A DNA stretch of 63,617 bases, taken from assembly GCA_002457155.1 (NCBI GenBank), contig NTJS01000006.1:1-63617 (forward strand), written 5' to 3'. Origin of the DNA: Marine Group II euryarchaeote MED-G35. GTDB lineage: Archaea > Thermoplasmatota > Poseidoniia > Poseidoniales > Thalassarchaeaceae. The notes beneath the pieces were generated by a model, which was given only the letters and a program-made list of their open reading frames with translations, was not told where the DNA came from and searched no databases. Positions 20,601-46,173 of this stretch are shown here, piece by piece; position 1 is the first letter of the stretch, and each line of letters opens with the position of its first letter. The position numbers and the translations under genes are program-made.

Positions 20601-20619
20601 CTTGGAGATTGAGGAGTGA
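11659..20619 (+). CDS. giant surface protein: TSP3-like calcium repeats, transglutaminase, Ig-like stalk, TM, DUF4129-like tail
   Basis: 2,986 aa. After a signal peptide (about residues 22-42), residues about 45-730 carry many D-rich calcium-binding repeats (DSDGLPDGWE.YGLDP type). A transglutaminase-like domain follows at about 860-1045 with Cys972 in GDCDEFTSVFV, His1020 in WAEVHL and the third catalytic position apparently Glu1038 (GWIPFEA) rather than the usual Asp. Residues about 1060-2830 are about 15-20 Ig-like/invasin-like modules. One TM helix (about 2837-2859) leads to a 127-aa cytoplasmic domain with RRGFLRRNFETVREFE and FEEARYSSH, strongly resembling DUF4129. Transglutaminase plus DUF4129 is the combination seen in bacterial TgpA-type proteins, here split across the membrane by a giant stalk. 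It ends 1 bp from the convergent downstream gene. Peptide crosslinking or hydrolysis at the surface is inferred. Confidence 0.88.
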   Translation: MHMANPNYGESVPSAKKRSASLLTFLMLMSGVASMQLAVFEASATVNDQDADGLPYGIEFLINTQPQDWDSDNDGLPDGWEWQYGLDPLSSSGDNGSTGDPDSDGLTNLNEYLYGIPSGWDEPSTTNILDNGVWWNGTIPVSNWDEESAMQVIQGTGSDGADEDPVGNICTDTFDNDHDGMVDSNDPDFDGDADCSSNDDDGDGIEDEDPNGWDTDGDGMPDGWEAANGLDPTSNSNQDGTFGDPDSDGLSNIYEYVNPAWGTRNGTTFPPTQYFRPGPINMTVTESPCNPVLSLGPGGCGIFTAEVDGITQTDPQNNDTDGDGLNDSLEGLILLTDPTSPDTDSDGILDGIEYNGSYGDPAQGSDPRNNNTDGDHLDDGDEDLNGNGVIDPGETDPTRINDEGDFDGDGIQNWEENNSCTLWNVSDSDGGGISDGNEGFPGQTDPCTSIFELVFTIISWDGDADTLTINSTEGINPDPVDWRGNAPMAYFVSPNGTRTSFSYASLEEPSFLKGVDTEPPIGTATILFTNGSWCWDASVNATNDPWCDDDYKDSDGDGLADWEELTAAWGFLSDPTLYDTDGDGVNDLSETLNLTDPREPCHNLLDSDEDGLNNYFENTTGCSMIFGIGGFGFGGNFTSDVWFTLWNVADTDNGGVEDGQEYLDGTNPQDNPDDDINPLDTDGDGIPDLIEQDIGTDWLDPDSDGGGIPDGEECPEDFWVLDCIGSPGDPFDPIDDIQENALMFTATNSSEGLDPTVKHYWRWHTYDFYTGVSWGVNSTLVGNTQVTPEFSTEQGVADQSFWNHSGPLSWEIIFDEAGYVGPGQELIQPHNVVNFTAWVDSSAGLNFSNYTRDIIVDSAVIEALYVNAPEVILSAVIRENSTAFADSDYGKDLPQDFLNNSGFVANLTQDVLDQSGAISAWEKVTAIQNFIVNGNETISFLRNHYGSGRESGLGIDSDVSHWILNSSREGDCDEFTSVFVTMLRMAGIPARKVTGFSGGSWDGKAFKVYGKDFTRWAEVHLQTNQNQGELDLGWIPFEACPPMSEVSVNVESWGPTSIERNTTTSEQIWVAGTLEFVENQTLVDNISLSMYLVEPSQSEEVPGSAAILEHIVANVTTDENGSFNLTGLPPQVIQPGFGSLVILTTEMGYVGIQGISMPWQINITDDVSLSITSPIPVGQPMLGIGVNSSITGQLSWASSPFLDPSIVDDLQVVLNYSSDVDGEVSVVSGVSGGGYYEFIVPIDETEPLGLMDAAISFQGWHFDDLNNATPPSYHALPGILPFMLNITLSPNLTVEIHSQGQNNSILEIGSNIYLNGTVLSRGPSPTPLNGTLILEMRRADISGPFQELTTWYLNDSSWSSTPGDFSIVWPFSASDVPLPAGPVDVRLQFDSDDLNSNDQEQFIDIYGIRSFVVFNYELPFAIRGREYAVDVFLEDHTGSSFAPFDGEYTLIFDDDLVWNETDPDAGRVTPTFTPSFGMIPGDYDWNLSYGGSTWLSPNSTSDALRVRGMANASASVSNDWSVRGSTNWVSGFARDMVLQNQITGNNTSVTVRLLVPSTLPPTPGGFPAAPTIFNIANGWVDELTGAYNLSFEIPQGIPSGVYEIDVTLSFSGNPPVGGSYYNAGDPTTISLGVQTEFVVETDPQSSIVTAGEELILQSAVTDVEDPTAALSGVALDLYFDWGGPLQTILQSGTTDSEGIVSFDPIVPSTAPPGFYDIRVHAADDLSDNLTTPEAGRWLGNESFVNLTVQVFSSVEITSIPSQVTALQSFNLVGNVMDSVDANRTVDGPVGINVFFLDEPEELLINNQTTNMTGAFNLIVPTDTLGNGVLRGDRTLVVSVVNGSTPFYLTGNGDASILVMGISQFVDSNPFVNTIVDRGESITITTRLVEFSNNENPLSGFEVWALFHDTWLDPGVTAADGSIAFEFEVPHDHPLGLVNVTFVFNGSVDLHPAVLTLNTITVRSTATMVIDPITTNPLPGEFFNVTGSLTSSNGSGLSDSSGNPLNPTLTFSIDDESSTFIVSQVTFNADGTWLAELRLDLSFPRGPHGLDVSFTPQVTYFSSASGFTTFDSRGFSVLTIESPDDLDPDNRTIRGDAFDISLSLIDNAGGPVISATIVVRIDDITVWGGLTDSNGTASASILVRPERDPGPMVVTATFSGINGTTGLLGDETWTRVIVLAPTNLVLKEASSPSLAGGSVTLVGSLLDERGQLLKAEGNTSGGLIHLYIDGIDVGPAYTTFSNASTGQWSITYLIPSEMDFGSHTARVDFLGGFSWVDPMGQGDSLNPEYYLSSSDSMAFNVTQPTQVVISTPPAEIDRTEVAVVEGVLTDGVGRAIPSRDLVMSVDGQEITAISADVNGSFTGFVPIASDMALGPIVIGIGFAGEDFLLPSESSVVFTVFSPVFVTMDPIGPIAVGDAMLISGSAKDNLEDGWLGSQTIEIFVDGVLVGITSSQENGLWSLEWTIPDSMDIGNHSISAISPAQGFYRQGIIESNFTVSYHTSISHQVEQTYVTRGGHWNFSGRLFESDTGFEQGLEGREISVLLDGTPVELVVTEEGGVFSYSHRVQYALSRGSHNVSFLFGGEFLYLSTGAVSQVFVLSDIVVEVQPITNTIIRGDASPSSSIMIQGLVRELGGESAIFANLSMSLTWGESNLPITSGPWDNPSTMNFQIRAKAQEFMHPGENIITIVVDSDQSRFLNGVSKEIEILVMIEVDFVYSELDLSNGQRLIRGTVNATARDTGAPLEGLSLTASLMNGSTTHFSVSKLTGEDGVFLYEFKSMAPLPSLSEQSLPPEGWGLLSVMIGSDSEFIDPGSLALLPSSGIAISYEEQEDDSLFGSATVAFGALLVAAIAIAIGAIAFNTKRKSTIRELAKVLGQTVEMLASGDEYRRAIFLCYENMCSVLMRRGFLRRNFETVREFEHAIREALPISEASLVSLDRIFEEARYSSHILGDTHRDNAQLALSSVMQEIEAIQDIPARDLRLEIEE

Positions 20620-29280: not shown

Positions 29281-30552
29281 ATGGCCGGAATGGAAGTATT
29301 GGTGGTTGGTTCTGGTGGCCGAGAACACGCATTGGCACTGGGTCTTTCTCAGAGTGATTCCGTTTCTTCAGTCCACTGCACACCTGGAAATGCTGGCACA
29401 TCAATGGTAGCCACCAATCACGGAATCCTGGTTTCTGACATCGAGGGAATCGTCAGCCTAGCAAAGCAATTGATGGTATCATTGGTTGTTGTTGGTCCCG
29501 AGGCACCACTAGTGAATGGACTATCAGATAGGCTAAGACAGGAATCAATACCCAGCTTCGGCCCTCATTCCGAGGGAGCACTCCTAGAAGGATCCAAGAC
29601 TTATGCAAAGACGATCATGGAGTCACTCGGAGTCCCAACAGGGAGATTCGAGAGGATTGATGAAATTGACTCAATAGAGGCCAGCTTGGAATCATTTGAA
29701 CCCCCATGGGTCATCAAGAGAGACGTACTCGCGGGAGGAAAGGGAGTTACTGTTACCTCCTCGAGAAAAGACGCGCATGAAGCACTGAGAAATGGGGTTG
29801 AGACAGATGGTTTTGTCCTCATGGAAGAGCATCTTTCAGGAGAGGAGGCCTCAGTCTTAGTGATCATGGACGAGTCTGGCTATGTGATGCTTCCAGCAAG
29901 CCAGGACCACAAGAGAGTAGGAAATAATGACGAAGGCCCAAACACCGGGGGGATGGGTGCATATGCGCCCGCCCCAGTCGTAACGCCATCAGTATTGGCC
30001 AGAACAAGGGAAGAGATAGTAGAACCAATGCACCACCATCTAAGAAATTCGGAGATACCCTATCGTGGTTGCCTATACGTTGGTCTGATGATTGATGAAG
30101 ATGGAGCTCCGAGTGTTGTCGAGTTCAATGTAAGGCTGGGAGATCCGGAGGCCCAGGTCACTATTCCGTTGTTCCAGTCAGATTTGGGACTGGTTCTTCT
30201 TGCAGCCGCGCAGGGAAATCTTGCAGACATTGATGTTGAATTCAAAAAAGTCCACGCTGCAACAGTTGTCTTAGCATCAGAGGGATATCCTGGGGATGTT
30301 TTTTCTGGTAGGTTGATCGAAGGTTGGGATGCGACAATAGAAGAAGGACAGGTTCTCGGTTTTGTCCATCTTGCTGGAGCAAACAGGAAAGATTCAGGAG
30401 AACTAATTTCAACTGGGGGGCGGGTGCTCTCGGCAACTGGAATTGCGCCTACACTCGGTGAGGCATTGGAGGCCTCATATCAGATAATTGGGGGAATCGA
30501 ACTGGAAGGCTCCCATTATAGAGAAGACATCGGTTTTCGTGCACTTCCGTGA
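29281..30552 (+). CDS. purD: phosphoribosylamine-glycine ligase
   Basis: GAR synthetase, second step of de novo purine synthesis. 423 aa, usual length. N-terminal VLVVGSGGREHALA, an ATP-grasp core (VIKRDVLAGGKGVTV, LMEEHLSGEEASVLV), SQDHKRVGNNDEGPNTGGMG and VEFNVRLGDPEAQVTIP are all intact. ATG 29281 is preceded by TTTATC (29253-29258), 28 bp upstream, consistent with a leaderless transcript; ATG 29290 is an alternative. Confidence 0.95.
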   Translation: MAGMEVLVVGSGGREHALALGLSQSDSVSSVHCTPGNAGTSMVATNHGILVSDIEGIVSLAKQLMVSLVVVGPEAPLVNGLSDRLRQESIPSFGPHSEGALLEGSKTYAKTIMESLGVPTGRFERIDEIDSIEASLESFEPPWVIKRDVLAGGKGVTVTSSRKDAHEALRNGVETDGFVLMEEHLSGEEASVLVIMDESGYVMLPASQDHKRVGNNDEGPNTGGMGAYAPAPVVTPSVLARTREEIVEPMHHHLRNSEIPYRGCLYVGLMIDEDGAPSVVEFNVRLGDPEAQVTIPLFQSDLGLVLLAAAQGNLADIDVEFKKVHAATVVLASEGYPGDVFSGRLIEGWDATIEEGQVLGFVHLAGANRKDSGELISTGGRVLSATGIAPTLGEALEASYQIIGGIELEGSHYREDIGFRALP

Positions 30553-30610: not shown

Positions 30611-30630
30611 CAAGCGTTTTGGTCGGCGCG

Positions 30631-33600
30631 ATGCTGAGTCATTGGCAAATAGGTCCGGTGGATGGGATGGAAGAGGAGAAAGATACAATTCAAGTTGTTC
30701 AATTCAACAACCTTGTCGCACCAGTTGCTATCACTCTGGCACTACTTGGATTGGCTATCGTCGCTTCCTCTCTGGAAGGCAGAGAAGTTGACGGCGATTT
30801 CCTCTCTACAGCCATCCTAATCTCACTATCGGTGCTAATTCCGGCATGTATTGGCAGGACTTCCTGGCTGTTACCTCTTGATTCCGGAGCCCTTCGTGTC
30901 GGCGCTATCACTCTCGCCCTATCGCTAATAGGAATATCCGCAAATTTAGCAGATTCAGAAAATTTCAACCATATGTTCGTTGCCACATTCGTTTTCGTTG
31001 GATTCGCTTCAGCGTCATTAAACGAATCAGAACGATTTGAAGAGTCTGCCACCTTCCTCTCAATTGTTCTGGGGATGCGCCTTGCGGCATTCTATGCAGG
31101 GGGGCTCATTATCGCTCAAAGTGACTCTCTTGCTGTAATAGACACAGTCAGGGAATCAATCGGAGCTGCATTCTTCTCATTCTGGCTCTCTTCAATATCA
31201 CTCGGTTTCCTTGTGATGGTCGGACTAAGGGGGACAATGGAGAATCGGGGCAAGGGGAATCTAATGGCCAATCTTCCAAACATTAGGGAGAACCCAGAGG
31301 TAGGGGTATACGCATCCCTAGTCTTCGCTAGCTTCTTGGTTCCACTAATCTGGATTGGCCAGATTGGCTCTCTCCAGGATTTCTCTCAGCAGAACCACAT
31401 TGGATTGGCATGGGCATCATTCTCTGCATTAGTGATTTTCATTCATGCATTCTTCAGAGCAGAGGGATGGCACGTATTGGGTGCACTACTGGCAGTGAAC
31501 TGGATTCTTTACTCCATTGGCCATATTCATGAGATTGGTAACGAACTACCATCCTTATTCTCCGAGGACGGATTCATTGGCTCCTTCACCTGGTTCTTCC
31601 TATGGTTCTGGATGAACTTCTTCACCCTCTTCTTCGCTTCCAGAGGAGTTTTCGGAGATATCGCCCCTAGAAGGGAGAGGAGCGGCTTCAGAGTCTGGTG
31701 GGATGTCAACTCCTACGCAGTTATGGTTTCTCTTGCTTTCTTGATAGCACTCATCGTTAGAACCGCATGGAACGTAATCCCGGCAATGAATGCGAATGGA
31801 ACCGGGCTATGGGACATGACTGGTGGTTCCGACCCCTGGTACATGAAGAGAGTAGTGGACTATGTTATCGCTGAGAGGAGCCATCTGATTTTCGATCATG
31901 ATAGGGCTTACCCATCCGGGGGGATTAATCCAAGGCCCCCGCTCTTCTCTTGGTCCCTAGCCCTGGGTGGTCTGGCTCTCTCTTGGATTCTTGAAATGCC
32001 GGCCGACCAAGCAGTGTGGTGGTCCATGGCGGCACTACCCGCAGTCTACGGCGCCCTGATAGTCCTCCCAATTGCTGGGATAGCCTCACGCGCACACAGC
32101 AGGAGGGCTGGCATCATTGCAGCTTGGCTGATAGCCCTAATGCCAGGTCACATGAGCCGCTCAACATTCGCAATGTCGGACCACGACTCCTTCGCAATGC
32201 TTTTCCTGGCCATCGCATTCTACTATTGGATCAGGGCGATCGAGCATATCGATCACAATAAAATCTTCAAGTCAACTAGCACAAACCCTCTGTACATTTT
32301 CGCAGGAATGAGGGAGACGTGGAAGAGGAACCCTTCATTGATGGCAAATGCATCAATGGCCGGAATCGCTTTCTCAATCATGGCCCTTGGGTGGAAAGGA
32401 TTCGTTTACGGTCCGGGAATCCTCTTCCTAGCTTACTCATTCCAAGTTGCGATTAACATATTCAAAGGAAGGGATAGCCTTCAATTCACCTCTGCGGCTC
32501 TTCAAATGATGCTAGTCGCAATCCTCATACCGACTCCATTCTATGCTTGGCCGGGAATGAATCTCCTTTTCGCACCCAGTGGAATGCAACCTATGTTCTA
32601 CATAATTGGATTCACATTTGCCATGGGATGGGTGTCTAGCTCATTCAGGGACAAGCCTTGGTTGTTGGTAGTCCTAGGGGGTAGCGCATTATTCGGTTCG
32701 ATCCTCGCTTTGCTATACATTCTTCAGGTTAGAGATCTTTTCAATGGATGGGACATTCTCTTTACTGGCGGTTTTTACTTCTCCAAGAACAAGATCTTCG
32801 GAACTATCGGTGAGGCGCAAGCTCCTGAGAGGGGTGTTCTTTTCGCATCTTACGGTCCCATAGTGGCTCTAATCGCAATAGGTTGCGCATTCTTGCTATT
32901 GTGGAGAGGCAGTAGGAAGAATAAGTCAGATCTAACTCTTCTTGGACTCTGGACCATTATCGCAACATACATGGCATGGTCAGCCGGCCGTTTCATAATC
33001 AACGCCACCCCAGTAATTGCAGTAGTAGGGGGAATCGGGATTTCCATGCTATGGGGGGCAGCAAGTTTACCAGCCTTCACCAAGGTATGGAGAAACTCTG
33101 GAATTGGGACTCCAAGGACCCGTTTCAAGTCTCTATGGCCGGCCACCAAAGCACGTCCAGGAGTTCCGGCCATGGTCATGGTTTTGCTCCTCATCACATC
33201 TCAACATGCGACTTATGGGATCGATGCTGGAATCCCAAGAGGGGACCAGTCTGCAAACGAAATCGATCAGAGCCTATACGACATTGTCCCGGACATACTG
33301 AGACAAGACTTGCTAGGTCTCTTTTCAGTCATGAATAGCGAGACGTACGACCAAAGCGATTCTGGCCTATGGTACATGGGTACTTTCGGCCCAAGCTTCA
33401 ATTCACAGGGCTGGAATGAGGCATACGATTGGCTCTCTCAGCAGGATAGCGAAACGCCATTCAGCGATCGTCCCGCCTTCGTTTCCTGGTGGGACTATGG
33501 TTTCCAAGCCCTGGCTTCCGGTCAGCATCCCACGGTTGCCGACAACTTCCAATCTGGAATACCAAACAGTGGGGCAATGCTACTATCGGGAGGCCAGGAA

Positions 33601-36600
33601 GATACACTTTCGCTGTTCATAACAACCTTAGCGATGGGTGACAAGAGCATCAACAATGGCCAACTAGGCGATTCCTTCCTATCCGTCCTAGGAGGGCACA
33701 TGACTCCAGAACAGGTCCAGGAGTTCGAAGATATCACTTCCAACAACAACAAGGGGTTTGTCCAAGACCGTTTGATGGCTGTCGTTGCGGAATATGGGGA
33801 TTCCGAATTGCTTCAGGGTAAATCCCTGGACAGCAATGGGCTGACATGCTCCAATCCTTGTTTGGATACCTATGTTGTATTGGTAAACGGGGAACCATTC
33901 GGTGAAGCCACCACCAATTCATCCGAGGCAATGGCACTCTTCGATCAGGCTCGCGGGTCATCATCCGAATTCGAATTGGCAGAATTCGATGACGCAAGTC
34001 ACTACGATATGGCAGGATACCGATATACCAGAGACATCATTGACGACTACGATGATCTCTCGACCGCTCTCCACAGGACAAATGCCAGGTTCGGATTGGC
34101 TCGTGCGTTCCTAATAACTGCCTTCTCGCTCGATGATCTCGTACAGATATATGATGGAATCTCATCAATCGACACGTACGAGGTCTCAGATTACGAAGAG
34201 TCGCATGGGAGCACAACCTCGAGGAACCACGAGATTCGGTACTTCGCTGTAGATAACCGGCTATATCCACTTGGAGGGATGTACTACCAGGACTATCAGT
34301 CGTACCATAGGGGACAAACTACTGGAATCTTCCATGCTCCAACCCATCTTTCTGGACTCGACATCGACTCATACATTACAACAACTTACGAAACAAACCA
34401 GGGCGATCATACGCCTGAGGAGTTCCAAAGCACGTACTTAGAGGACCTCAAGGCTCAGGCTTCCGGAGCATCTACTGCCGAGGACATGATTCAGATGACG
34501 GATATGAAATATCAGCATCTGGACAGTTTCTTCGACACGATGATCGCAAGGACATATGTCGGGTACGGGACTTCCACGTTGGGGCTTCCATCGATAAGTG
34601 GCCAAGTTGGGGATGCCGACACGCCTTCTACTTGGATTCTACCAAACTCAATTACGGGAACCCCAGGGAGCTATTTGCAGGGGGCAATGGCACTTCCAGG
34701 GGCAATGATGAACCACTTCGTACTATCCAACTGGTACGATCCGACAAACGGTACTTCCTGCGAAGAAATTCAGATAACAGGTTCTGCTTCAACAGTAGCG
34801 GGCAGTTCTCAACTTTCGGACGTCTCACTCTATTCGGAGGACAGTCTCTCATCAGGATGGTCCCAGATTCAATCAGGAGGCCCTTGGAAGGTGACCCAAG
34901 TGGAAGAGGGGGTTATTCCCATGAACACTTCAACTATCAATTATGACTCCGACGAAGAGACGCTCTCAATCAGTTCAGCAGCCTCATCTTCTGCTAATGA
35001 TACTGAATTCACCCTAACAGGAAAGGTGGACAAGTATTGCGGCTCTATTTATGATTCCAACAGAAATGTAAAGATTCTGAAGTACTACAGCGGCGCAACA
35101 CTACAGGGCACTGTCACGCTAGATGGAGTCGGACCAGTACCCAATGCAAGGATCCTAATTGAGAGAGACGCTTTCAGCGGAGATGAGTCCGCGGACGAAG
35201 ACGGCAATGTCGTTGACAACGACTCCAGAACATACTGGATACCCATTGGGAGTACACAAGCAGACGAGGAAGGCCACTTCTCTTTCACTGCTCCATCTGG
35301 AAAGATCCGAGTCTCTGCTTTCACAGGCGATCCAGACTTGGATGCAGCCAGAACATCCCTGTTATCAGGTTCCGCCAACCTAATGTCAGAACTTTTCTCA
35401 GAGACATCCCAGAACCGTGCGGTAAACCCAGTAACTGGAATCCTGGGTAATGTCTACGGGTCAACATGGCTCTCTGAGACAATAGTGAACATTTCTGGAT
35501 CCGATGGACACAGCAATGGACAATCCGTAATCGAGGCTCCAATATCGGTATCGCCATCAACCGCTTCAGGGATACTCTCATGGTCGGGCGAACTTGATTT
35601 CGACGGGGACCCCGTTCTTTCTGCTAACATTACCCTCACTCCTTCTTCAGTAGACGTAGTGATCCAACCCTATGAGGTCATGACTTCTGATGGGAGCATG
35701 GTTGGGGAAGACTTGAGATTCAGTGGAACAGGAGAGGTCACATTCCTGGGAGAGGGAACTATGGAGAGCATGGGGGCAGTATCTGTTCACGACTTCACTG
35801 GCACCCATACTCAAGCTGTATTCGATAACCACAGCATTACTGGAGAGGGGCAATTCTCTGGAAAGGGTATGATCGATGGCACACTATTGGGCGAGTTCCC
35901 AGATTGCTCTGGAGATTCAGTCCCCGAGGGTTCTGATGCATGCATTAACGATGATGGCCACTATCTCTTGGAAGGAATAGCAAACGGCTCTGGAAAGTTC
36001 ACATCACAGGGAGTCAGTGAATTCACCAGGGAGCTCTCACAGGCCACATTCATCGGTTCAGGTAACTTCGCCACGGCTCCTTCAGATGACCTTGTCACAT
36101 TTGGGACAATTAATGGAACTGGTACTTTCTCGGGCCACGGATCGTTCAGTGGGCCTATGGTCCGACCTGGTTCCTTCCACATCGTCGACGCCCTTCCCGG
36201 CGAGTACGTCGTTTCAGTGGATTTCGGAACCGGGGATCCTGTGGAGATCGCGCAACCATTCGTAATCCCCCTGACTTCTTCTGAGATTCAGACTCCGGTA
36301 TCTATCACTGGAGGCGCGATCAAGGGAACTGTCTCGTTTTTCACTGGCAGGCCATTGTCGAGTGAGGTTTCGATTTTCTCAATCAATGGCTCTAGTGAGG
36401 ATTCCAATGAAGAGTGCCATGGCGTCATCACCCAACCATGTTTCATCATTCCTGACGAAAGTGGTTCTTTCGAGGTCGGACCAATAGTCCCAGGTTCTTA
36501 CATAGCAGAGGTAGATATCGATGACGACGGATTCCCAGAGATCTCCCATGCATTCTCATTCGTATCCGGATTAGCATCCCTGGTGTCCTTCCCTTCTGAA

Positions 36601-39600
36601 GTACCTCAAACATCTGACATCACATTCACCCTCTCCGATGACGGAACCAGTGTCGATGACCTTCAATTGCAATTCATACCAGAGGACCTTTCCAGAAGTG
36701 CAGTCACAGCAATGTTCGACAATGAGTCTAAGACTTACCACGCCGAGTTAAATCCAGGAATTTGGATACTCAATTACACACTCAGTGATGAGAAGCAACT
36801 GTGGCAGCGCATTTCTATGGGGAGTATCGATGTAAACGACTCTTTCGAGTTCTTGGTTAGCCAGGTCGTAAGTGGGGTTGTGATCGACTCAGTTAAGGGT
36901 GACGAAATCTCAGATCCAATGTTGTCCAGAGTGACCAACCAGGAGGTTTTGTTCCAATGGCAAGGCTTCACTCTCAAATCTGTAACTGACTCATTCGGAG
37001 AATTCAGCGTTATCCTTCCTCAAGGTGCCTTTGTCCATGCAACCGTGGAGAGAATGGTCGGAGCAGGCGGATTCTTCTCCAACGGAACGAGCTTTCAAGT
37101 GACAGATTCGATGGAAAATATCACAATAAAACTCACAGACTCAACAATGGTCCTCGGAGAAGTAAGCCTCAATCGTGAAGGAAACACGTACAATCAAGGA
37201 TTCTCCGGGTGGACTCCCGTATTTGCCAAAGCAAACAACTTGGACGGAACAACAGACGCCGTTTGGAGGGAAGAGGTGGATGACCTCGGACGATTCGACA
37301 TGCTGCTGCCTCTGGGCAACTGGTCTTTCACATTGGAAGCGGGCAGCGAAATGACCGCCAATGTCGTAGTCAAGGAAATCAACACCACATCAGATCCGAT
37401 GGTCGAGCTCCTTGTCCTTCCGACAAATAGTACTGTGGAGATAGATTTCTTCATCGATCATATAGGAGATAACAACGCATCCAATGGAACTCCAGTTTCC
37501 TATCCATTCGAGATTAAGCCCCTGTCACCCAATGGTGCCGGTTACACCGTCCTAAGAGATGGTTCGGAGTGGACTCAAACAGGATTGGCGGAAGTATCTC
37601 TTGAACCGGGAAGGTATCGAATAGTTGTTGAGAGGGCCAACTCTTCTGCAGACGATCCATTCGATACCTTGTATGACACAAATGACATCTTCGAAGTCGA
37701 GATCGGGTCTTCTTCTACAGTCAAGCGTTCTGTGGGATTCGAACCAAGATGGTTAGTTAACATCACATTCCGGAATGAGAGCGGCCAATTACTAGAAAAC
37801 CACGAAGTTAAACTCGAGAACGTCGAAAATGGTTGGATACAAACTTACACTACCAACGAAGATGGAGTGTTGGTTGAGTACATTGAAGAGGGAGATTGGA
37901 TCGTAATTGTAGATGAATTCGAGACAAACTCGGGAGTGTATGAGGGATTGCGAAGGGCGATTTCCACTTCTCAATCGACGGCAGGATCCAGGTCAAACTT
38001 CCAGACAGCCGAACTTGCCTCTGTTACTGTGACCCTCCAATCAACTTCGGATGTGGCAGCACCCGAGTTGGTTGATCTCACGATATCTTCACAAGAAGGT
38101 CTTGGATCATTCATAAGTTCGATCGGAGGATTTGATCAACCCCTGGAAATAAGGCTTGTACCCGGTTTGTGGACCGTTGAGATTAATCAGACCAACCAAG
38201 ATGGCGTAATGACTCTCTTGGAGAATTCTTCGTTGGTTGAATCCGGTGTCACCGTAGGGCCCAATCACCAAGTATTCTTGACCGTACAGAAACTAGTAAG
38301 CCTTAGTGGCAAGGTATTCTGGGACCTCGATGATGATGGTGCCCCAGGTTTCTCAGAGGGTCTTTCTAATGCCTCAGTAAACATTACCGGGAACCTTGAT
38401 TCCCCGACTCATCACCTAATTTCAGATAATGACGGAGTCTGGTCCACATTCCTTCCAGTCCAAAGCTCATGGAACATCACCGTAGAGAGAGAGGGCTTCG
38501 GAACGCAGACTTCCCCAATCGAAATCGGAGAAATCTCGGTAACCGAAAATATCGAGATTTCAGCCGGCGAGGTTGAAATCTCTGGCAGCATTTCGTATCC
38601 CGACCAGACATGCATTTCTAGCGGTGAGTGGCAAGTTCAGATGATTCCATCCCATGGAATTTCAAGAGAACGCCTAACAGTGCCTGGAAATTCTCTGGGA
38701 GAGTGGTCTGCCATGATCCAACCTGGCAGTTGGGTGGCAATGGCAACATCTACATCAGAGGCTTCCGAATGCATCGATCTGATTTCTATCGAACCTCTGG
38801 AAGTTGGGGTCGATGGAGGTTCAGTCGAATCAGAACTAACAGTTGGAGGGACTCTCAGACTTGAGACCAGTTGGTTGGACTTTAATGGCAACGCGCATGA
38901 TCTTACCGAGGTTGAGGATTATGACCTAGTCATAGAATACGGCCCAATTTCATGGTCCGAGGAACTAGGAAGCGATGGAGTCCTGAATCTATTAATAATG
39001 CCGGGAACGGTACAAACCTCCAGTACTTTCGAGTTGAACGAGGGCGTTCGAAACGTATCCTACTCAGGCGGCAAGGGAATTTCAATCAGGGCAGGACAGG
39101 TAAGTCCGATGAACACCCTAAGCATCGATAGGGTCTCCAAGCAGAGCGTCACCACAACAGTACTAGGGCTCGATAGGGTTGAGGTTCAAGAGGTCGATAC
39201 CACTTGCACCAACGACGATGACGGTGACGGCGTAATCAATGGCGAAGACGCATTCCCTACCGACTCCACCGAAACCTCGGACAACGACAATGATGGAATA
39301 GGAGACAACCAAGATCCCGATGACGACAACGATGGCGATCTTGACGACGATGACGACTTCCCTCTAGGACAAGGGCTGCCTACAAACTCAGCAGAGGGTT
39401 GCAAATACCAGAGCGCTGAGTTCGCTGTCTCGATTGAATACGACGGACACAACTCATTCGACGAATATACTCTCGTTGGAACAGTCCCCGGTGCCGATGG
39501 GGTTGATTGGAGTGTCCAGTTCCAGAATTCATCAGGAGAATGGTTGGATTCCGTAACATTCGACTTGGGTCTGTCTGATTCAGACCTTACTGAACAAATC

Positions 39601-40551
39601 AGTGTCCGCGTTACTCCTGCCAATGTTGGTGTTGCGCATCACTTCCCAGATGGGCACTTGGTCCTGATCAAGATGTCCACGGAACTCGGATACTCAACCC
39701 AAGTAGAATTGAGGGTGGATGTCCCAGAATACAACGGTATTGAACTAAATGAACCAGAAAACCTCTTCTTCGGAAGGGAGGAAACAGCCATTACGATTGA
39801 GATTCCATTCAAGAACACTGGAAACTCAGACGAGTTGTTCTACTTCGAATTCGGAAGTTCAGAGTGGTGGCAATTCGCCGGCCCAACGACCCAACCAGCA
39901 TCCCCATTCTCCGATGGCACTGCAACCTTCACGCTAGTACGTCCCTCTGAACCAGAACTGCCTTCCCCCTACGCTGAAGAAATCACATTCACTGTTTCGG
40001 ATCTGGATAACAATACTTACTCAGGCTCAACTGTAGTGGAGACCGACTCGCCAGTACTCTCCATAGTGGGAGATACGGCAAGGATCCTTGGAGGCAATGG
40101 CTTCGCTTCTTATGGTCAAATAGAGAGCTACTCGGTCAACATTTCCAACAGCGGGAATGTAGACGCTGAGACTGTCACCTTAGTGGCTACCCTATGCTCC
40201 GACATTGGTTGCGAAAATGAGGTAGGCGTCAACTCCACATCCAGCGGTTCAGTGTCAGCAATGAGCGAATCAACATTTTACATCACCATGGACTACACCC
40301 AGTTTACCGAGTCCAAGAAGTACTGGATAATCTTCTCAATAGACGGCGAATTGCTAGATGAACAGTCAGAGTCTTGCACATCGCCGAGATCAGAAGGCCA
40401 GGCATCTTGCGTCTTCGAGGCTCAGCTATGGACCAGTTCCGAAGCGAATGACAATCTGAAGTACCTGGCATACGCATTTCTCATTATGCTCATTGCAGCA
40501 CTCCTTTACTTTACTAGAAGGCCGGGTAGACGAGTCAGCGCCCCGTTCTAA
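30631..40551 (+). CDS. aglB: AglB/STT3-type oligosaccharyltransferase with giant surface ectodomain
   Basis: 3,306 aa, about three times the length of usual AglB. The N-terminal region is multi-TM with AglB/STT3 hallmarks: TGGSDPWYMKRVVDYVI, MSDHDSF, and the catalytic-face motif WWDYG at 953-957. A luminal domain continues to about 1,480. The remaining about 1,800 residues are an added exterior part: prealbumin/CNA-B-like modules, a Gly-rich GxGxF segment (about 1701-1849), an SdrD_B-like module (about 2560-2630), a TSP3-like Asp-rich calcium segment (about 2856-2914), further Ig-like modules and a final TM helix with a short basic tail. No frameshift or stop interrupts the fusion. I chose ATG 30631 over TTG 30619 from the TATA spacing. 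It is followed closely by a membrane subtilase. N-glycosylation of surface proteins is the expected role; the tail function is unknown. Confidence 0.9.
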   Translation: MLSHWQIGPVDGMEEEKDTIQVVQFNNLVAPVAITLALLGLAIVASSLEGREVDGDFLSTAILISLSVLIPACIGRTSWLLPLDSGALRVGAITLALSLIGISANLADSENFNHMFVATFVFVGFASASLNESERFEESATFLSIVLGMRLAAFYAGGLIIAQSDSLAVIDTVRESIGAAFFSFWLSSISLGFLVMVGLRGTMENRGKGNLMANLPNIRENPEVGVYASLVFASFLVPLIWIGQIGSLQDFSQQNHIGLAWASFSALVIFIHAFFRAEGWHVLGALLAVNWILYSIGHIHEIGNELPSLFSEDGFIGSFTWFFLWFWMNFFTLFFASRGVFGDIAPRRERSGFRVWWDVNSYAVMVSLAFLIALIVRTAWNVIPAMNANGTGLWDMTGGSDPWYMKRVVDYVIAERSHLIFDHDRAYPSGGINPRPPLFSWSLALGGLALSWILEMPADQAVWWSMAALPAVYGALIVLPIAGIASRAHSRRAGIIAAWLIALMPGHMSRSTFAMSDHDSFAMLFLAIAFYYWIRAIEHIDHNKIFKSTSTNPLYIFAGMRETWKRNPSLMANASMAGIAFSIMALGWKGFVYGPGILFLAYSFQVAINIFKGRDSLQFTSAALQMMLVAILIPTPFYAWPGMNLLFAPSGMQPMFYIIGFTFAMGWVSSSFRDKPWLLVVLGGSALFGSILALLYILQVRDLFNGWDILFTGGFYFSKNKIFGTIGEAQAPERGVLFASYGPIVALIAIGCAFLLLWRGSRKNKSDLTLLGLWTIIATYMAWSAGRFIINATPVIAVVGGIGISMLWGAASLPAFTKVWRNSGIGTPRTRFKSLWPATKARPGVPAMVMVLLLITSQHATYGIDAGIPRGDQSANEIDQSLYDIVPDILRQDLLGLFSVMNSETYDQSDSGLWYMGTFGPSFNSQGWNEAYDWLSQQDSETPFSDRPAFVSWWDYGFQALASGQHPTVADNFQSGIPNSGAMLLSGGQEDTLSLFITTLAMGDKSINNGQLGDSFLSVLGGHMTPEQVQEFEDITSNNNKGFVQDRLMAVVAEYGDSELLQGKSLDSNGLTCSNPCLDTYVVLVNGEPFGEATTNSSEAMALFDQARGSSSEFELAEFDDASHYDMAGYRYTRDIIDDYDDLSTALHRTNARFGLARAFLITAFSLDDLVQIYDGISSIDTYEVSDYEESHGSTTSRNHEIRYFAVDNRLYPLGGMYYQDYQSYHRGQTTGIFHAPTHLSGLDIDSYITTTYETNQGDHTPEEFQSTYLEDLKAQASGASTAEDMIQMTDMKYQHLDSFFDTMIARTYVGYGTSTLGLPSISGQVGDADTPSTWILPNSITGTPGSYLQGAMALPGAMMNHFVLSNWYDPTNGTSCEEIQITGSASTVAGSSQLSDVSLYSEDSLSSGWSQIQSGGPWKVTQVEEGVIPMNTSTINYDSDEETLSISSAASSSANDTEFTLTGKVDKYCGSIYDSNRNVKILKYYSGATLQGTVTLDGVGPVPNARILIERDAFSGDESADEDGNVVDNDSRTYWIPIGSTQADEEGHFSFTAPSGKIRVSAFTGDPDLDAARTSLLSGSANLMSELFSETSQNRAVNPVTGILGNVYGSTWLSETIVNISGSDGHSNGQSVIEAPISVSPSTASGILSWSGELDFDGDPVLSANITLTPSSVDVVIQPYEVMTSDGSMVGEDLRFSGTGEVTFLGEGTMESMGAVSVHDFTGTHTQAVFDNHSITGEGQFSGKGMIDGTLLGEFPDCSGDSVPEGSDACINDDGHYLLEGIANGSGKFTSQGVSEFTRELSQATFIGSGNFATAPSDDLVTFGTINGTGTFSGHGSFSGPMVRPGSFHIVDALPGEYVVSVDFGTGDPVEIAQPFVIPLTSSEIQTPVSITGGAIKGTVSFFTGRPLSSEVSIFSINGSSEDSNEECHGVITQPCFIIPDESGSFEVGPIVPGSYIAEVDIDDDGFPEISHAFSFVSGLASLVSFPSEVPQTSDITFTLSDDGTSVDDLQLQFIPEDLSRSAVTAMFDNESKTYHAELNPGIWILNYTLSDEKQLWQRISMGSIDVNDSFEFLVSQVVSGVVIDSVKGDEISDPMLSRVTNQEVLFQWQGFTLKSVTDSFGEFSVILPQGAFVHATVERMVGAGGFFSNGTSFQVTDSMENITIKLTDSTMVLGEVSLNREGNTYNQGFSGWTPVFAKANNLDGTTDAVWREEVDDLGRFDMLLPLGNWSFTLEAGSEMTANVVVKEINTTSDPMVELLVLPTNSTVEIDFFIDHIGDNNASNGTPVSYPFEIKPLSPNGAGYTVLRDGSEWTQTGLAEVSLEPGRYRIVVERANSSADDPFDTLYDTNDIFEVEIGSSSTVKRSVGFEPRWLVNITFRNESGQLLENHEVKLENVENGWIQTYTTNEDGVLVEYIEEGDWIVIVDEFETNSGVYEGLRRAISTSQSTAGSRSNFQTAELASVTVTLQSTSDVAAPELVDLTISSQEGLGSFISSIGGFDQPLEIRLVPGLWTVEINQTNQDGVMTLLENSSLVESGVTVGPNHQVFLTVQKLVSLSGKVFWDLDDDGAPGFSEGLSNASVNITGNLDSPTHHLISDNDGVWSTFLPVQSSWNITVEREGFGTQTSPIEIGEISVTENIEISAGEVEISGSISYPDQTCISSGEWQVQMIPSHGISRERLTVPGNSLGEWSAMIQPGSWVAMATSTSEASECIDLISIEPLEVGVDGGSVESELTVGGTLRLETSWLDFNGNAHDLTEVEDYDLVIEYGPISWSEELGSDGVLNLLIMPGTVQTSSTFELNEGVRNVSYSGGKGISIRAGQVSPMNTLSIDRVSKQSVTTTVLGLDRVEVQEVDTTCTNDDDGDGVINGEDAFPTDSTETSDNDNDGIGDNQDPDDDNDGDLDDDDDFPLGQGLPTNSAEGCKYQSAEFAVSIEYDGHNSFDEYTLVGTVPGADGVDWSVQFQNSSGEWLDSVTFDLGLSDSDLTEQISVRVTPANVGVAHHFPDGHLVLIKMSTELGYSTQVELRVDVPEYNGIELNEPENLFFGREETAITIEIPFKNTGNSDELFYFEFGSSEWWQFAGPTTQPASPFSDGTATFTLVRPSEPELPSPYAEEITFTVSDLDNNTYSGSTVVETDSPVLSIVGDTARILGGNGFASYGQIESYSVNISNSGNVDAETVTLVATLCSDIGCENEVGVNSTSSGSVSAMSESTFYITMDYTQFTESKKYWIIFSIDGELLDEQSESCTSPRSEGQASCVFEAQLWTSSEANDNLKYLAYAFLIMLIAALLYFTRRPGRRVSAPF

Positions 40552-40572: not shown

Positions 40573-41829
40573 ATGGGGACAAACATGCGTGGAATCTCAC
40601 GTCTCGAATTGATGCCTGAACCTGAAGACCCCAGTCTACTTACTGCCGTAGACAGCGATGCACCGGGCTATCCAGGAGAGGCCTACGGCATCAGTGACGA
40701 AGAGGCTAGGATGCTGAGATGGCCAATGGGGCCAATAATGAGATTCTTATGGCCTTGGGGGGCAGTTGGATTCTCCGCAATAGTCGTCTCTATTTTGCTC
40801 CTTTATCCCTCGATATACTCGCTTATTGGAGAGGTTCTGGATTCGGAATGGGCTTTCGAAGATAGCGGCATCAGGGATCTCCAGGAATCTGGAAGCCTAG
40901 GTGAAGGAGTCAGAGTATGTATGGTCGACACCGGCATAGACATCTCTCATCCAGACCTATCGCATCTAACGTTATCCGGATTTCGTGACTTCTATAGCGA
41001 AAAAGACTCTCCAGTAAGAGACATCGGGACAAATAGTCACGGAACCCTGATGGCGGGACTTCTTGCTGCCAATGGCTCATTCACTGGCGCTGCCCCAAGC
41101 GTTTCACTTTCGATTGCGATTTCTCTCGGGCCAGACGGAAAATCTGCAAACGAGAGGATGGTCTCCCAAGCGATTAGGTGGTGCCGCATTTCTCAGGACT
41201 CTGACATAATTTCTCTAAGTCTGGGAACTGCTCCCGGATCTAGCTTCTCAGCATCATCTGACACCCTTGATGCGGTCAGAGAGGCATTAGGTGATGGGAT
41301 TTTCGTAATCGCAGCCGCCGGAAACAGTGACTCAAAACAGAACCTCTCCGACGTCTCTTCCCCTGCTAGCCTATCTGGTGTGATTGCAGTAGGGGCACAT
41401 GATAGAAATGGGGATCCGTGGGTTGACAGTGCTGAAGGAGCACAAATCGATCCAGAAACTGGTGAGGAACGAATATTCCCAAACCAGAAACCCGAGATCG
41501 TAGCTCCCGGTGTCGATCTTTGGTCTTGCAGAGACAGTGACCGTGACCCCCCATACGCATTCTCAACCGGTACCAGCGATTCTACGGTATTGGTTACAGG
41601 GGCCCTCGCCTTGATCCTCTCATTGTATCGAGAGGAAATTGCGGGAGAAAATGGAATCATCGACCAACATGAAATGGATTTAGTCAAGGTCGCGCTTGCA
41701 AACTCGGCACGAACCGACTCAAGCCAATCTGAAGGCCACGACCCGAAGAAAGGCTATGGGCTCCTTGATGCCCAAGACTGGTCTAGACAAGTAGAAATTG
41801 AATTCGGGATAAACCAAGAAAACATATGA
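40573..41829 (+). CDS. membrane-anchored subtilisin-like serine protease (S8)
   Basis: An N-terminal hydrophilic stretch, one TM segment (about residues 65-85 counted from a TTG at 40558) and an external S8 domain. The catalytic triad is intact: D124 in MVDTGID, H161 in NSHGTLMAG, S340 in FSTGTSDST, with the oxyanion asparagine in AAAGN. It lacks a large propeptide. Starts at TTG 40558, ATG 40573 and ATG 40585 are all possible; no clear ribosome binding site decides between them. It begins just after the aglB stop, so it is probably co-expressed with the oligosaccharyltransferase and acts on exported or glycosylated surface proteins. Confidence 0.87.
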   Translation: MGTNMRGISRLELMPEPEDPSLLTAVDSDAPGYPGEAYGISDEEARMLRWPMGPIMRFLWPWGAVGFSAIVVSILLLYPSIYSLIGEVLDSEWAFEDSGIRDLQESGSLGEGVRVCMVDTGIDISHPDLSHLTLSGFRDFYSEKDSPVRDIGTNSHGTLMAGLLAANGSFTGAAPSVSLSIAISLGPDGKSANERMVSQAIRWCRISQDSDIISLSLGTAPGSSFSASSDTLDAVREALGDGIFVIAAAGNSDSKQNLSDVSSPASLSGVIAVGAHDRNGDPWVDSAEGAQIDPETGEERIFPNQKPEIVAPGVDLWSCRDSDRDPPYAFSTGTSDSTVLVTGALALILSLYREEIAGENGIIDQHEMDLVKVALANSARTDSSQSEGHDPKKGYGLLDAQDWSRQVEIEFGINQENI

Positions 41830-41863
41830 ATTGAGGATAATTGATGAAACTCCTTGTCCCTAT

Positions 41864-41871
41864 GGTTAAAT
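41864..41871 (+). promoter_or_regulatory. predicted TATA element GGTTAAAT
   Basis: GGTTAAAT; its TTAAA begins 30 bp before ATG 41896, giving a leaderless start. Resembles the lipA and aglB elements. Confidence 0.45.
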
Positions 41872-41895
41872 TGTTTAGATGTAGTCCGATGCATT

Positions 41896-44800
41896 ATGGC
41901 GCGGGAAGATAAATTGCGGTCATTCTCATTAACAGGTCTATTCTTGTTGAGCATATTACTTTCATTGGCCTTGCCAGCAGGTACCGTTGCCGCATCAAAC
42001 GAGACAACAACGGGGACAATTACCGGTACTGAGACTTGGGCAGGAGTACACACCCTTACCGGAGATGTCACAATAGCCCCCGGTGCAAAATTGATCATTA
42101 ATCCAGGGGCAACTATTGAGTTCCCCAACGGTACCCATCTGGATGTACGGGGAAGCCTGTGTGCCGGCGTCTCTTCATGTGGAGCTTCTTCAAACGCTGG
42201 GCCTGCAATGAGAATAACCCTGAGGTGGAGTGAACCCCTCAATTCGAGTGCAACCGGGGAATGCTATGGTATGAGTTCTGGCAACCAAGAGATATGGATA
42301 GATGATCCTTCATGCAGCGAGGGCGTTCTAATGAGGAGTTCGATAGATCTTTCTGAAACTGGTCTCAGATATGTCACATTCGATAGTGCATGGGGGATTC
42401 CTCAGTATGTCTCTGCAGTGGGTGAATTCCGCTATGGGGCACTCGTTCTAGACGGAGCTAGCCCAACTCTTACCGAACTTTCATTCAATCAGATTAACAC
42501 CTCCAGTGTCCTGACAACCAACCTCGCCCAACCAACTTTCAGTGGAGGGGAATTTGTCGTAGGGGCCGACGAGAGTAAGAGCATCGTCGGGGCAGCACTG
42601 CAGATTTACTCCTCGGGATCCTCAGTAAGCCCATTCTCTCTGTCTGATATTTCACTCACAGGAACCGACAATGGATGCGGGAATAGGGATGGGGGGAGGC
42701 ACACAATTTGGGCCGAGGACTCATTTATCGAGATAGATAATGCTGAAATCTCATCAGGAGATTTTGGAATCGGGCTTTGGACATCCGCGGGAAGCGTGAC
42801 AAACACGCAGATAAATGTGAACTGTAACGGCATCGATCTAAATGGAAAGAAGGCAGTAGGGGGGACTTCATTCGACTTTGAAATCTTGAACAATGAAATA
42901 ACTACGGTCGACGGAGCAGGAGTTTTTGCATCAGCCGGGGCACTAGTGTCCTTGATAGACAACGATATTGGCGGAGCGGCATCTGGTTCCGGAATAGCTG
43001 TTTACAATAGCGTGGCCCACATTCACGAAAACGAAATTGGACCAATAGGGGGCTACTTTGGATTGTGGTTGGGTGGCTCGTACGACGTTATCGCTGAGAA
43101 TAACTCTATTTTCGACACCACTCTAACCCCAGTGGTTGCTGGGATGTACTCATACGCCATTCAAGCAGCATCTAGGCTGTACCTAGCAAACAACTCAATC
43201 TCCTATGAGGGTACTGGGACCTGCAGCAGTGAAACCAATTGGGGAGGCGAGTTTTCTTGTCCCGTCTTGCATGCATACGTGACAGGAGTTACCATGTATG
43301 ACAACATCATCACTGCCGGTGGAACGGCCGATGGGATTCGAGCAGTGGGGTCCCTGTTGGATATTCAGAGGAACTCATTCGATGTGCAAAAGACTGGTGC
43401 AGTGATCAAGAACTACGACAGTGGATATGCCGAATCACAGCAATTCGGGTCACTAGCATACTTCTCTGAAAACGACTGGAACCAGGCTGAGACAGTGTAC
43501 AACGTGACAAAAAGCTCAGTAACCGCCCAGTCAGAGTACATACCCTCCCCTCCCAGCGGGGAATACCCAGTCCGCCTATCATGGCCAGACCAGGAGGCTT
43601 GGCCAGACAATGAATTCCAAGGAGCGATAATCCCAACGCCAGTAAAGGACTGCAACAATTGCCAGAACATGACGCCGAGGGACTTCCCATTGGGCGTCAG
43701 CATGGATAACAACTCAACGGTATTCACTTTTGCAGATTTGACGAACTTGGACTTGTCCAAGGTCAAGATTGCAACACAGCCAACCCACTTCGCAGTACAG
43801 GTCAGCAGAGCCGAACTCGTTCGATTCCAGGCACTAATTGATGGTGAAAAGGTAAGCGATGCATTGGTCATTGTGGAGGATGCACTCGGTAACGACCTGT
43901 ATCGCGTAAATACTGGTGGAGATGGTTTCACCCCATGGATCGCCCTCCCATCAAACTTTCACCTCGACTTCAGAGGACTTGGCGGAGGAGATAATCCGGA
44001 TGGGTTTGCGGATGATGAGTACGAGGACTCTTGTTCAGACGGGATTGACAACGATGGCGACCTCACCATCGACACCGCAGATTCCAGTTGCGATTATTCA
44101 GCAGGAACCAGGGAACTTTCACTTTACAGATATACTGCCTATAGATTTGGATATGGCTACTACTCCGGGCAGTTCACCCTTGAGGAGAACTCGCTCGAGG
44201 AGACTGCTCACCTTGAGAACGAAGCTCCAACGGTGATAGTTACCGAGAATGATGGGCATTCATTCAGAAGAGTGGTCAACATCACTGGAAGCGCTCACGA
44301 TGGGACATTAGCAAACAGTTACCTGACTGACGAGAGGGCTCAGTGGGACCAGGGTGGCTATGTTCATGCCGTCCAAGTGAGGAATCCATTCACCGGTTCT
44401 TGGGAGGATGCCGAATTCGCGGTTGATACTAGCGGTGCAGATGAGGGCGAGGTCACACGCTTCAACAGGCCTTTCGGCTCTTGGTACTACAATATTGACA
44501 TGACAGGACTCGCAGGTGAAGGAGATTACACATTCGAATTCAGGGCATTTGATGGTATAGACCACAGTCCTGTGGTTTCGCGGACAATCAAACTCAATAC
44601 TCAACCCCCCAGCATTTTCGTCACCACTCCCAGTTCATTCTCATCTCACGATGAAGGTTCTGTAGTCTTCGATGGCTATTCCCAGGACCCTTATGGGTGC
44701 CCGGACAATTGCAACACCGACATTGGCCTAGTATACATGCAGATTTCGGGACCAAATTACCAAGTTACCAGCCCAGTTGAGACTAATTCCGATGGGACTT

Positions 44801-46173
44801 GGGATTGGGAATGGGACTTCAGCACCCGGCCCAGGGAACTAACGACCTACACCTTCACGATTTGGGCATCAGATTCAGATTTCTGTAATGGGGAACTGGA
44901 CGAGTGCCAGCCAGTAGTACTGACCCTTACAATCGATAACAGGAATAGCCAACCCACAATTAGCATCAATCAGCCAATTTCGGGAACAAGAATTTCCACC
45001 TCTTTGGATACCTCCCTAACCGGTGTTGCTAGGGACTTCGATGGAGGGGTTACAAGAGTAGATCTGGAAGTAATAGACGTAGCAAATGACTTTGTCACAG
45101 TTTATGAGGCCAGCACGAGTGAATTCTCCGAAGATGGAATTTGGGAGATTGAGTGGGACACTACTCAACTCCGTCACGATGCAGAGTATCTGCTAAAATT
45201 CCGCTCTTATGATGGAATTGACTATAGCGATTGGGACGACGTAACCATTGTTGTCGACAATCCTCCAAATGTGAATAATAACCAACCCAAATTCGACTCA
45301 TCAGGATGGCAAAGCGAGATCATCCTATATTGCGACTCCGAATCAAACTCTGTCGACAAGTGTACCACAGTGGAGATAGATCTGAAGGAGTATTTCTCCG
45401 ACGCAGACAGCACAGAGTGGCAGTCCGACATACAATTCTACTCTGTTTACAACGACACATCAATCCAATCTGACGATAGACACGCTCTTGTCGTCGGTGT
45501 CGGATCAGATGGAATTGCTCGTTACGACCCCGCAGACATGTTGTTTTTCGACGATGACATGGAGTCTTGGACTCTGAATGATGTGATTTTCATCGCCACC
45601 GATAGCTGGGATTCTCGAGCCAACTCATATCCTGTCAGCTTCAGAGTCGTCCCCCTCCAATTCACGATTCAGGAGCCCGAGCAGTCTTGGGTCGAAGTGG
45701 ATGAAATGGCAATATATTCCGGCATCGGACTTCCCGGCAAGCAAGTTTCTGTTTTGATAGGTGGTAATCCAGTCAACACCACGCTCGTCTCTGAAGACGG
45801 ATCATGGGAGTTGGGAATTCCAGCTTCTAGAATAAAGGGGGACTCATCAATACCCAAATTCACTTATGCCGGAACAGAGACAGAAGTTAGCGCAATTAGC
45901 AAGGGAGAGCCAACGCCCGAATCAACAAACTGGGGATTGATTGGAGTAGTTTCTGTTTTGGCCATCCTGTCTCTGGCTGCTCTTGCTTACTTCACTGGAT
46001 TCATAGGAATTGAGATTGAAGAAGATGATGAGTACAAGACCCCTGCCCAAATACCGAAGGACTACGGTGACGAGGAAGAAGAGAGTGCTCTGGAGAGGTA
46101 TGATGACCACCCAGGTTGGCTTTGGGATGCAGCTTCCGAGGAATGGGTCCCAGATCCGGATTTCCAAGAATAA
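41896..46173 (+). CDS. surface protein with beta-helix and Ig-like domains, C-terminal TM
   Basis: 1,425 aa from ATG 41896 (the frame is open to 41854, but the signal peptide and TATA spacing favour ATG 41896). A signal peptide is followed by a right-handed beta-helix-like region with short Asn/Gly-rich turns (HENEIGPIGGYFGLW, IAENNSIFDTT), a short calcium-type segment (DGIDNDGDLTIDTADSSCD), several Ig/cadherin-like modules (DWDDVTIVVDN), a TM helix near residues 1350-1370 and an acidic tail. The tail ends in HPGWLWDAASEEWVPDPD, a Trp-rich cytoplasmic motif of unknown role. Function is probably polysaccharide binding or adhesion; no catalytic residues were identified. Confidence 0.8.
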   Translation: MAREDKLRSFSLTGLFLLSILLSLALPAGTVAASNETTTGTITGTETWAGVHTLTGDVTIAPGAKLIINPGATIEFPNGTHLDVRGSLCAGVSSCGASSNAGPAMRITLRWSEPLNSSATGECYGMSSGNQEIWIDDPSCSEGVLMRSSIDLSETGLRYVTFDSAWGIPQYVSAVGEFRYGALVLDGASPTLTELSFNQINTSSVLTTNLAQPTFSGGEFVVGADESKSIVGAALQIYSSGSSVSPFSLSDISLTGTDNGCGNRDGGRHTIWAEDSFIEIDNAEISSGDFGIGLWTSAGSVTNTQINVNCNGIDLNGKKAVGGTSFDFEILNNEITTVDGAGVFASAGALVSLIDNDIGGAASGSGIAVYNSVAHIHENEIGPIGGYFGLWLGGSYDVIAENNSIFDTTLTPVVAGMYSYAIQAASRLYLANNSISYEGTGTCSSETNWGGEFSCPVLHAYVTGVTMYDNIITAGGTADGIRAVGSLLDIQRNSFDVQKTGAVIKNYDSGYAESQQFGSLAYFSENDWNQAETVYNVTKSSVTAQSEYIPSPPSGEYPVRLSWPDQEAWPDNEFQGAIIPTPVKDCNNCQNMTPRDFPLGVSMDNNSTVFTFADLTNLDLSKVKIATQPTHFAVQVSRAELVRFQALIDGEKVSDALVIVEDALGNDLYRVNTGGDGFTPWIALPSNFHLDFRGLGGGDNPDGFADDEYEDSCSDGIDNDGDLTIDTADSSCDYSAGTRELSLYRYTAYRFGYGYYSGQFTLEENSLEETAHLENEAPTVIVTENDGHSFRRVVNITGSAHDGTLANSYLTDERAQWDQGGYVHAVQVRNPFTGSWEDAEFAVDTSGADEGEVTRFNRPFGSWYYNIDMTGLAGEGDYTFEFRAFDGIDHSPVVSRTIKLNTQPPSIFVTTPSSFSSHDEGSVVFDGYSQDPYGCPDNCNTDIGLVYMQISGPNYQVTSPVETNSDGTWDWEWDFSTRPRELTTYTFTIWASDSDFCNGELDECQPVVLTLTIDNRNSQPTISINQPISGTRISTSLDTSLTGVARDFDGGVTRVDLEVIDVANDFVTVYEASTSEFSEDGIWEIEWDTTQLRHDAEYLLKFRSYDGIDYSDWDDVTIVVDNPPNVNNNQPKFDSSGWQSEIILYCDSESNSVDKCTTVEIDLKEYFSDADSTEWQSDIQFYSVYNDTSIQSDDRHALVVGVGSDGIARYDPADMLFFDDDMESWTLNDVIFIATDSWDSRANSYPVSFRVVPLQFTIQEPEQSWVEVDEMAIYSGIGLPGKQVSVLIGGNPVNTTLVSEDGSWELGIPASRIKGDSSIPKFTYAGTETEVSAISKGEPTPESTNWGLIGVVSVLAILSLAALAYFTGFIGIEIEEDDEYKTPAQIPKDYGDEEEESALERYDDHPGWLWDAASEEWVPDPDFQE

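Follow-up and report, generated by a model that had tools for sequence, protein, structure and literature searches.

The window (the whole stretch of DNA analysed, 63,617 nucleotides) carries a giant aglB, in which one unbroken reading frame joins an STT3-type catalytic core to a long array of transthyretin (TTR)/prealbumin-like units and a last transmembrane helix; from its sequence, the product is a predicted enzyme and the organism's only detected AglB oligosaccharyltransferase. By profile comparison the gene is not an oddity of one genome: a homologous extension is present in many families of the phylum, and its spread suggests that the giant layout is old in the phylum and is a built-in accessory part, not a sequencing error. 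For the function of the array, the reading that we prefer, at a probability of roughly 45%, is that of a built-in accessory ectodomain that would act in cis and handle acceptor proteins. The gene and its neighbours are laid out as follows.

29281..30552, + strand: purD (GARS), conserved upstream neighbour
30667..31665, + strand: N-terminal multi-helix domain, residues 13-345, found in the host order and without a match in the sister order; 30667 is the probable start
31684..33120, + strand: STT3/AglB membrane module, residues 352-830, with D401, D517, D519 and E728
33121..35070, + strand: AglB C-terminal globular catalytic part, residues ~831-1480, boundary inferred
33487..33501, + strand: WWDYG motif, residues 953-957
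35083..35379, + strand: TTR unit 1, residues 1485-1583, from profile-profile comparison
35428..36270, + strand: glycine-rich insert, residues ~1600-1880, with probably little counterpart in other giants, judging from weaker segment matches
36292..39165, + strand: ~10 further TTR units, residues 1888-2845
39181..39405, + strand: optional calcium-binding-type aspartate repeats, residues 2851-2925
39406..40425, + strand: two Ig-like domains, residues ~2926-3265, read from sequence
40456..40512, + strand: last transmembrane helix, residues 3276-3294
40513..40551, + strand: short basic tail (contains RRPGRRVSAPF), predicted cytosolic, and stop codon
40558..41829, + strand: membrane-anchored subtilase (S8), conserved downstream neighbour; its longest frame starts 6 bases past the aglB stop and its first ATG is at 40573
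41854..46173, + strand: secreted NosD/Big_7-like protein with a C-terminal transmembrane helix, next conserved neighbour

The aglB frame (30619-40551, + strand) is open throughout and, read from the ATG at 30631, gives 3,306 residues. M13 (ATG 30667) is an invariant column across 23 rows (for the 22 rows besides the window protein, the first Met of the frame was taken as the start), so ATG 30667 is probably the natural start, giving 3,294 residues. An earlier note had described a single uninterrupted frame joining AglB/STT3 to a long extension, with WWDYG at 953-957, and both points were borne out: the fusion is seen from 30619/30631 to 40551, and the motif lies at these residues of the 3,306-residue translation. 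Of the modules that it had listed, the analysis recovered prealbumin-like units (~11 at 1485-1583 and 1888-2845 by profile-profile comparison, counted as profile matches above 50% probability with overlapping ones merged by eye), a calcium-repeat stretch that is present (~2851-2925) yet optional among relatives, two Ig-like domains and a second anchoring helix, hydrophobic, at 3276-3294. That first reading did not include residues 13-345, which form a separate multi-helix domain.

The catalytic core matches STT3 (PF02516) at residues 400-634 with 41.9 bits against a Pfam cut-off of 24.5, and AglB_core at 948-983 with a score under its cut-off. Among ten PDB matches, nine are labelled oligosaccharyl transferase and one uncharacterized, with Archaeoglobus fulgidus AglB on top. 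The reference catalytic acidic residues of the A. fulgidus enzyme are D47, D161 and E360 (PMC7226087); by motif context their counterparts are D401, D517 and E728, all of which are in the window protein together with D519 and WWDYG. D519 takes the place of His163, and R510 that of Arg154, a position held by His in many relatives. The columns of D517, D519, E728 and WWDYG do not vary in a 24-member core alignment (16 from the host order, 2 from the sister order and 6 others), and that of D401 shows conservation of 90% or more. The 255 residues that follow WWDYG in the window protein contain neither DXXKXXX(M/I) nor MXXIXXX(I/V/W), and DK-like strings are found in 4 of 15 rows; variants of the DK/MI motifs are described as hardly findable without a structure (PMC3703281). 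A single STT3 match was found in the organism's own assembly, which is 67.6% complete. The N-terminal multi-helix domain was found, in a search within the class, in 48 of 49 host-order genomes and in none of 21 sister-order genomes, with 17-27% identity between the two families of the host order. No convincing Pfam family was found for it in 23 members, and its profile gave no signal against those of the giants or of six other N-termini (L123, where the STT3 start was not located, was left out). We considered whether it arose as an incomplete copy of the STT3 membrane module and rejected this, the profile comparison giving no signal.

That the frame is an assembly artefact fusing two genes is, in our estimate, next to impossible. 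The earlier note had proposed that related genomes with the parts as separate genes would reveal such an error; instead the relatives use one frame, in single-contig genomes too. The core was matched in 141 of 145 host-order genomes, the four others (G005, G106, G129 and G143) being 75-92% complete. Named genomes were scanned, and the best 80 of the 508 relatives make up the named loci (their records bear titles such as Candidatus Poseidoniales, Thalassarchaeaceae, Marine Group II, Euryarchaeota and similar ones); the nearest of these best 80 is 99% identical. The locus end cuts 17 of the 80 (including L223); of the 63 uncut loci, 58 carry a frame no shorter than 3,000 residues. The intact frames come from many records and include single-cell genomes (the AG- isolates L154, L155, L165, L188 and L191) and L208, whose isolate name suggests that it derives from long reads. 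What speaks for an artefact is that five uncut loci have interrupted frames, as does the single-contig genome G002; these breaks, however, are an in-frame stop or frame-shifts within otherwise matching DNA, the rest of the gene lying in other frames at L176, L185 and L224 and the frame ending near the contig end at L170. At L159 one in-frame stop (L159:3359-3361), seen also as one TAA in G086, breaks aglB; in G002, a genome of the host order, aglB (L112:4443-14020) is split into two overlapping halves of 1,603 and 1,624 residues. With intact frames across the order and giants on single-contig genomes, we ruled the artefact out.

Beyond the host order, 16 of the 19 sister-order frames listed have 2,293-2,375 residues, and the remaining three have 2,065, 1,893 and 956. 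A sample of 60 loci plus 14 more, chosen to span families and lengths, contains outside the host order 39 giants, 2,062-2,744 residues long, and 11 short forms with 926-1,429; L112, whose frame is split, and L255, which lacks an exact WWDYG, are not counted. When called by a mean hydropathy above 1.6, the last helix is present in 23/23 host-order members, in 38/39 giants outside the order and in none of the 11 short forms; the only miss among the 62 giant rows is L115, which is cut by its contig end. Tails are net-positive in all 23 host-order members and in 39 of 40 rows for the outside giants plus the window protein. Giants are also encoded on single-contig genomes, among them two of 1,564,906 and 1,486,778 bases.

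The extensions themselves are homologous by profile comparison: taken without the core, the window extension matches those of other giants at E 1e-77 and those of the sister order at 3e-31. Successive segments find their best matches in the same order across giants, but shifted registers score nearly as high for some segments, as these are repeats, so unit-by-unit colinearity is not firm; the segment at residues 1550-1850 has weaker matches to other giants. When five other large window proteins were compared with the giants' extension as a control, four gave E of 0.01 or above and the fifth, 8647-11583, gave 6e-7. This last is a 978-residue protein with weak NEW3/Ig-like matches that resembles the last Ig-like part of AglB. 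When window segments were searched as single sequences against other giants, matches beyond the order came from the catalytic C-terminal part alone, and neither the N-terminal domain nor the distal segments gave any. The extension profile of the other giants, scored on three candidates in each genome, finds 181 of 194 phylum genomes at E of 1e-10 or below, a figure that counts matches of the Ig-like end to other frames of ~430-2,330 residues. Among the matches listed, short AglB frames cover roughly the first 200-350 profile positions. On a 74-row core tree (63 giants and 11 short forms) the giants need two changes, L134 being a long branch, and a single origin of the giant form is possible. 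One genome, G227, has a second strong array in a frame of 1,315 and two STT3 matches.

Within the extension, sequence is loosely kept. Identity between the two host-order families reaches 54-68% in the best core windows and 13-36% in the distal array; residues 1501-1575, in the first TTR unit, are 54% identical. In the calcium-repeat stretch, 19% of positions are filled between the two families. CarboxypepD_reg at 2576-2635 is barely over its cut-off (33.5 vs 32.3), and a TTR profile of our own, built from 12 seeds, was too weak to find a unit in the window protein at the first round. Length is nearly constant, at 2,247 +/- 49 residues from WWDYG to the end in 23 members. Loose sequence at a near-constant length suggests that the distal array is a modular arm, not a second enzyme, although near-constant length is also seen in a 2,986-residue protein encoded at 11659-20619 and is thus not special to AglB.

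We counted N-glycosylation sequons to place the array relative to the membrane. The window extension holds 31, against 18.2 +/- 3.8 in shuffled sequences, and an excess over expectation is found in 16/16 rows, two of which are short forms. The 12 cytosolic proteins of the window hold 10 sequons where 20.9 are expected. Five other secreted window proteins hold 119 against 68.9, with nearly all of the excess coming from 11659-20619; the other four are near expectation, so that an excess is no general mark of secretion here. The sequon excess and the basic tail together favour an array that probably lies outside and carries glycans, with the last residues inside; from hydropathy, we infer a membrane anchor at either end of the chain.

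The protein encoded at 11659-20619 is secreted and transglutaminase-like, with 76 sequons where 28.4 are expected, and makes a candidate for the main glycoprotein. It was matched in 60/60 host-order genomes searched, with near-constant length where whole. An in-frame TGA flagged in many of its orthologues proved to be the ordinary terminal stop at the six loci read.

The order purD, aglB, S8 subtilase, NosD-like secreted protein is found in both families of the host order. The same-strand neighbours at 81 loci include purD at 75, the subtilase at 66 and the NosD-like protein at 63, several of the loci being too short for all three; none of the three was found at L114 and L249, the two loci inspected outside the host order. 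The S8 subtilase has one hydrophobic helix, and its D, H and S catalytic motifs were read from sequence. The NosD-like protein (41854-46173; 1,439 residues) has a C-terminal helix followed by a long acidic tail.

One functional proposal of the earlier note, that the enzyme might reach substrates far outside the membrane, finds no support and is unlikely. The active site lies in the membrane-bound core, the glycan donor is lipid-linked (PMC7226087) and the extension appears to be anchored at both ends, so the arm cannot carry the active site outward. The accessory reading is compatible with this geometry: a chain that starts and ends in the membrane would leave the array as a loop or arm beside the active site and the exporter, where it could hold or present emerging surface proteins near the active site and keep glycosylated segments from sliding back; separate lumenal subunits such as Ost1/ribophorin I have been proposed for such jobs in eukaryotes. 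This reading comes near another suggestion of the earlier note, that the enzyme may bind the protein scaffold on which it acts. Among the points against an accessory role are that short AglB forms exist in the phylum, which makes AglB possible without the full arm, and that a fast-evolving distal array also fits a plain spacer.

Such a spacer, or a structural surface element, is the alternative in which the array is an envelope rod or loop that the enzyme merely anchors, and which covers the membrane or sets spacing in cells whose wall is slight or absent; the earlier note, too, had raised a structural part in the surface. Generic scaffold-type units, low identity, near-constant length and many sequons would all suit it, as would the case of Cuniculiplasma (Thermoplasmata), for which an AglB and no distinct S-layer are described (PMC5155288). 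Many families of the phylum nevertheless keep extension and enzyme in one chain, and on balance we consider a structural role rather unlikely. A transferase is usually too scarce to build a coat, which also counts against it. A processed precursor appears improbable: here the chain would be cut, perhaps by the adjoining subtilase, into the enzyme and a C-terminally anchored surface protein. A membrane-anchored protease with D, H and S motifs does lie directly downstream, on the same strand in 66/81 loci, yet it was not found at L114 and L249, both of which carry giants, and it may serve other secreted proteins; moreover, we know of no cleavage site in the chain.

We give still less credit to a passive ornament, a neutral tail added by domain shuffling with no role in glycosylation. 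The 13-36% distal identity between families and the existence of short forms are what such a tail would predict. However, one would expect a neutral tail of ~5 kb to disappear, and the extension is homologous across the phylum, near-constant in length within the order and closed by the last helix in 61/62 giant rows.

Archaeal oligosaccharyltransferases (OSTs) are described as single-subunit enzymes (PMC7226087), and the three AglBs of A. fulgidus have 591, 593 and 868 residues (PMC3703281). A doubly anchored form of 2,000-3,300 residues means that 'single subunit' need not equal the catalytic core alone. Whether accessory OST functions can arise in cis thereby becomes a testable question, as does the way in which wall-poor or planktonic archaea add glycans to very large surface proteins. 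We found no description of a giant AglB in the literature within our scope, which leaves out most subscription journals and is weak evidence of absence, and none in the available passages of PMC5155288, PMC4973528, PMC2952790, PMC8241124, PMC5898192, PMC8745461, PMC7226087 and PMC3703281. According to its Methods, one evolutionary study removed sequences that were too long (PMC4973528); our guess is that this filter may have dropped giant AglBs.

Among known systems, archaeal AglB-L of A. fulgidus (PDB 3waj/5gmy, 868-875 residues) shares with the window protein the STT3 module, the catalytic acidic residues and WWDYG. CC, IS and P1 units make up its C-terminal domain; the consulted part of PMC3703281 describes for it neither a TTR array nor a last helix nor additional helices at the N-terminus. 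The window protein resembles TIGR04154 (archaeosortase-associated oligosaccharyl transferase) in that this family is its best NCBIfam match (residues 364-986, 169.4 bits), but it scores far under the curated cut-off of 450, and membership was rejected.

NOMO has a lumenal layout with a C-terminal helix. This subunit of the BOS complex of the eukaryotic translocon (PDB 9c7v), whose partners are nicalin and TMEM147, resembles the extension in its tandem TTR-like units; it is a separate protein, unlike the array fused to AglB, and the sequence likeness is unspecific. Against PDB, the window distal profile has NOMO2 first at E 0.098, and a profile of 20 other giants finds NOMO2 at 2e-35, ahead of the first non-NOMO chain at 5e-9. 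Pfam matches in these 20 giants are CarboxypepD_reg and SdrD_B (20/20 each), NOMO_5th (18/20) and NOMO1-like_9th (11/20). A control made from a non-AglB membrane protein with three units (one phylum family, 12 rows) has NOMO2 first too, at E 5e-27, and a single-sequence search with the extension of one other giant found no PDB chain at E of 0.01 or below. Orthology to NOMO was rejected given the window value of 0.098 and the same top match in the control; as far as these profiles go, the likeness is one of domain type and layout and is not evidence of orthology. L244:1318-2364 encodes a conserved 349-residue membrane protein of one phylum family; it consists of three TTR units followed by a C-terminal helix with a charged tail, and NOMO and EMC7 domains are among its Pfam matches.

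Searching PDB with extension profiles found no chain of a eukaryotic OST accessory subunit at E of 1 or below. Ost1/ribophorin I, Wbp1/OST48 and Swp1/ribophorin II resemble the giant form in having lumenal domains beside STT3, and Ost1 and Wbp1 have a single membrane helix each (PMC7226087); they are separate chains, and the extension has no sequence match to them in PDB. A role of the holding or presenting type beside STT3 has been proposed for Ost1, although the roles of the accessory subunits are described as largely unclear and Swp1, Wbp1 and Ost1 as lacking chaperone-like folds (PMC7226087). A broader evolutionary scenario, which we advance tentatively and hold to be doubtful, is that the phylum inherited a single-chain OST holoenzyme with a translocon-side ectodomain in cis, to which the planktonic marine order would have added the N-terminal module; the giant AglB would then be a fused counterpart of the multi-subunit OST/translocon assembly of eukaryotes.
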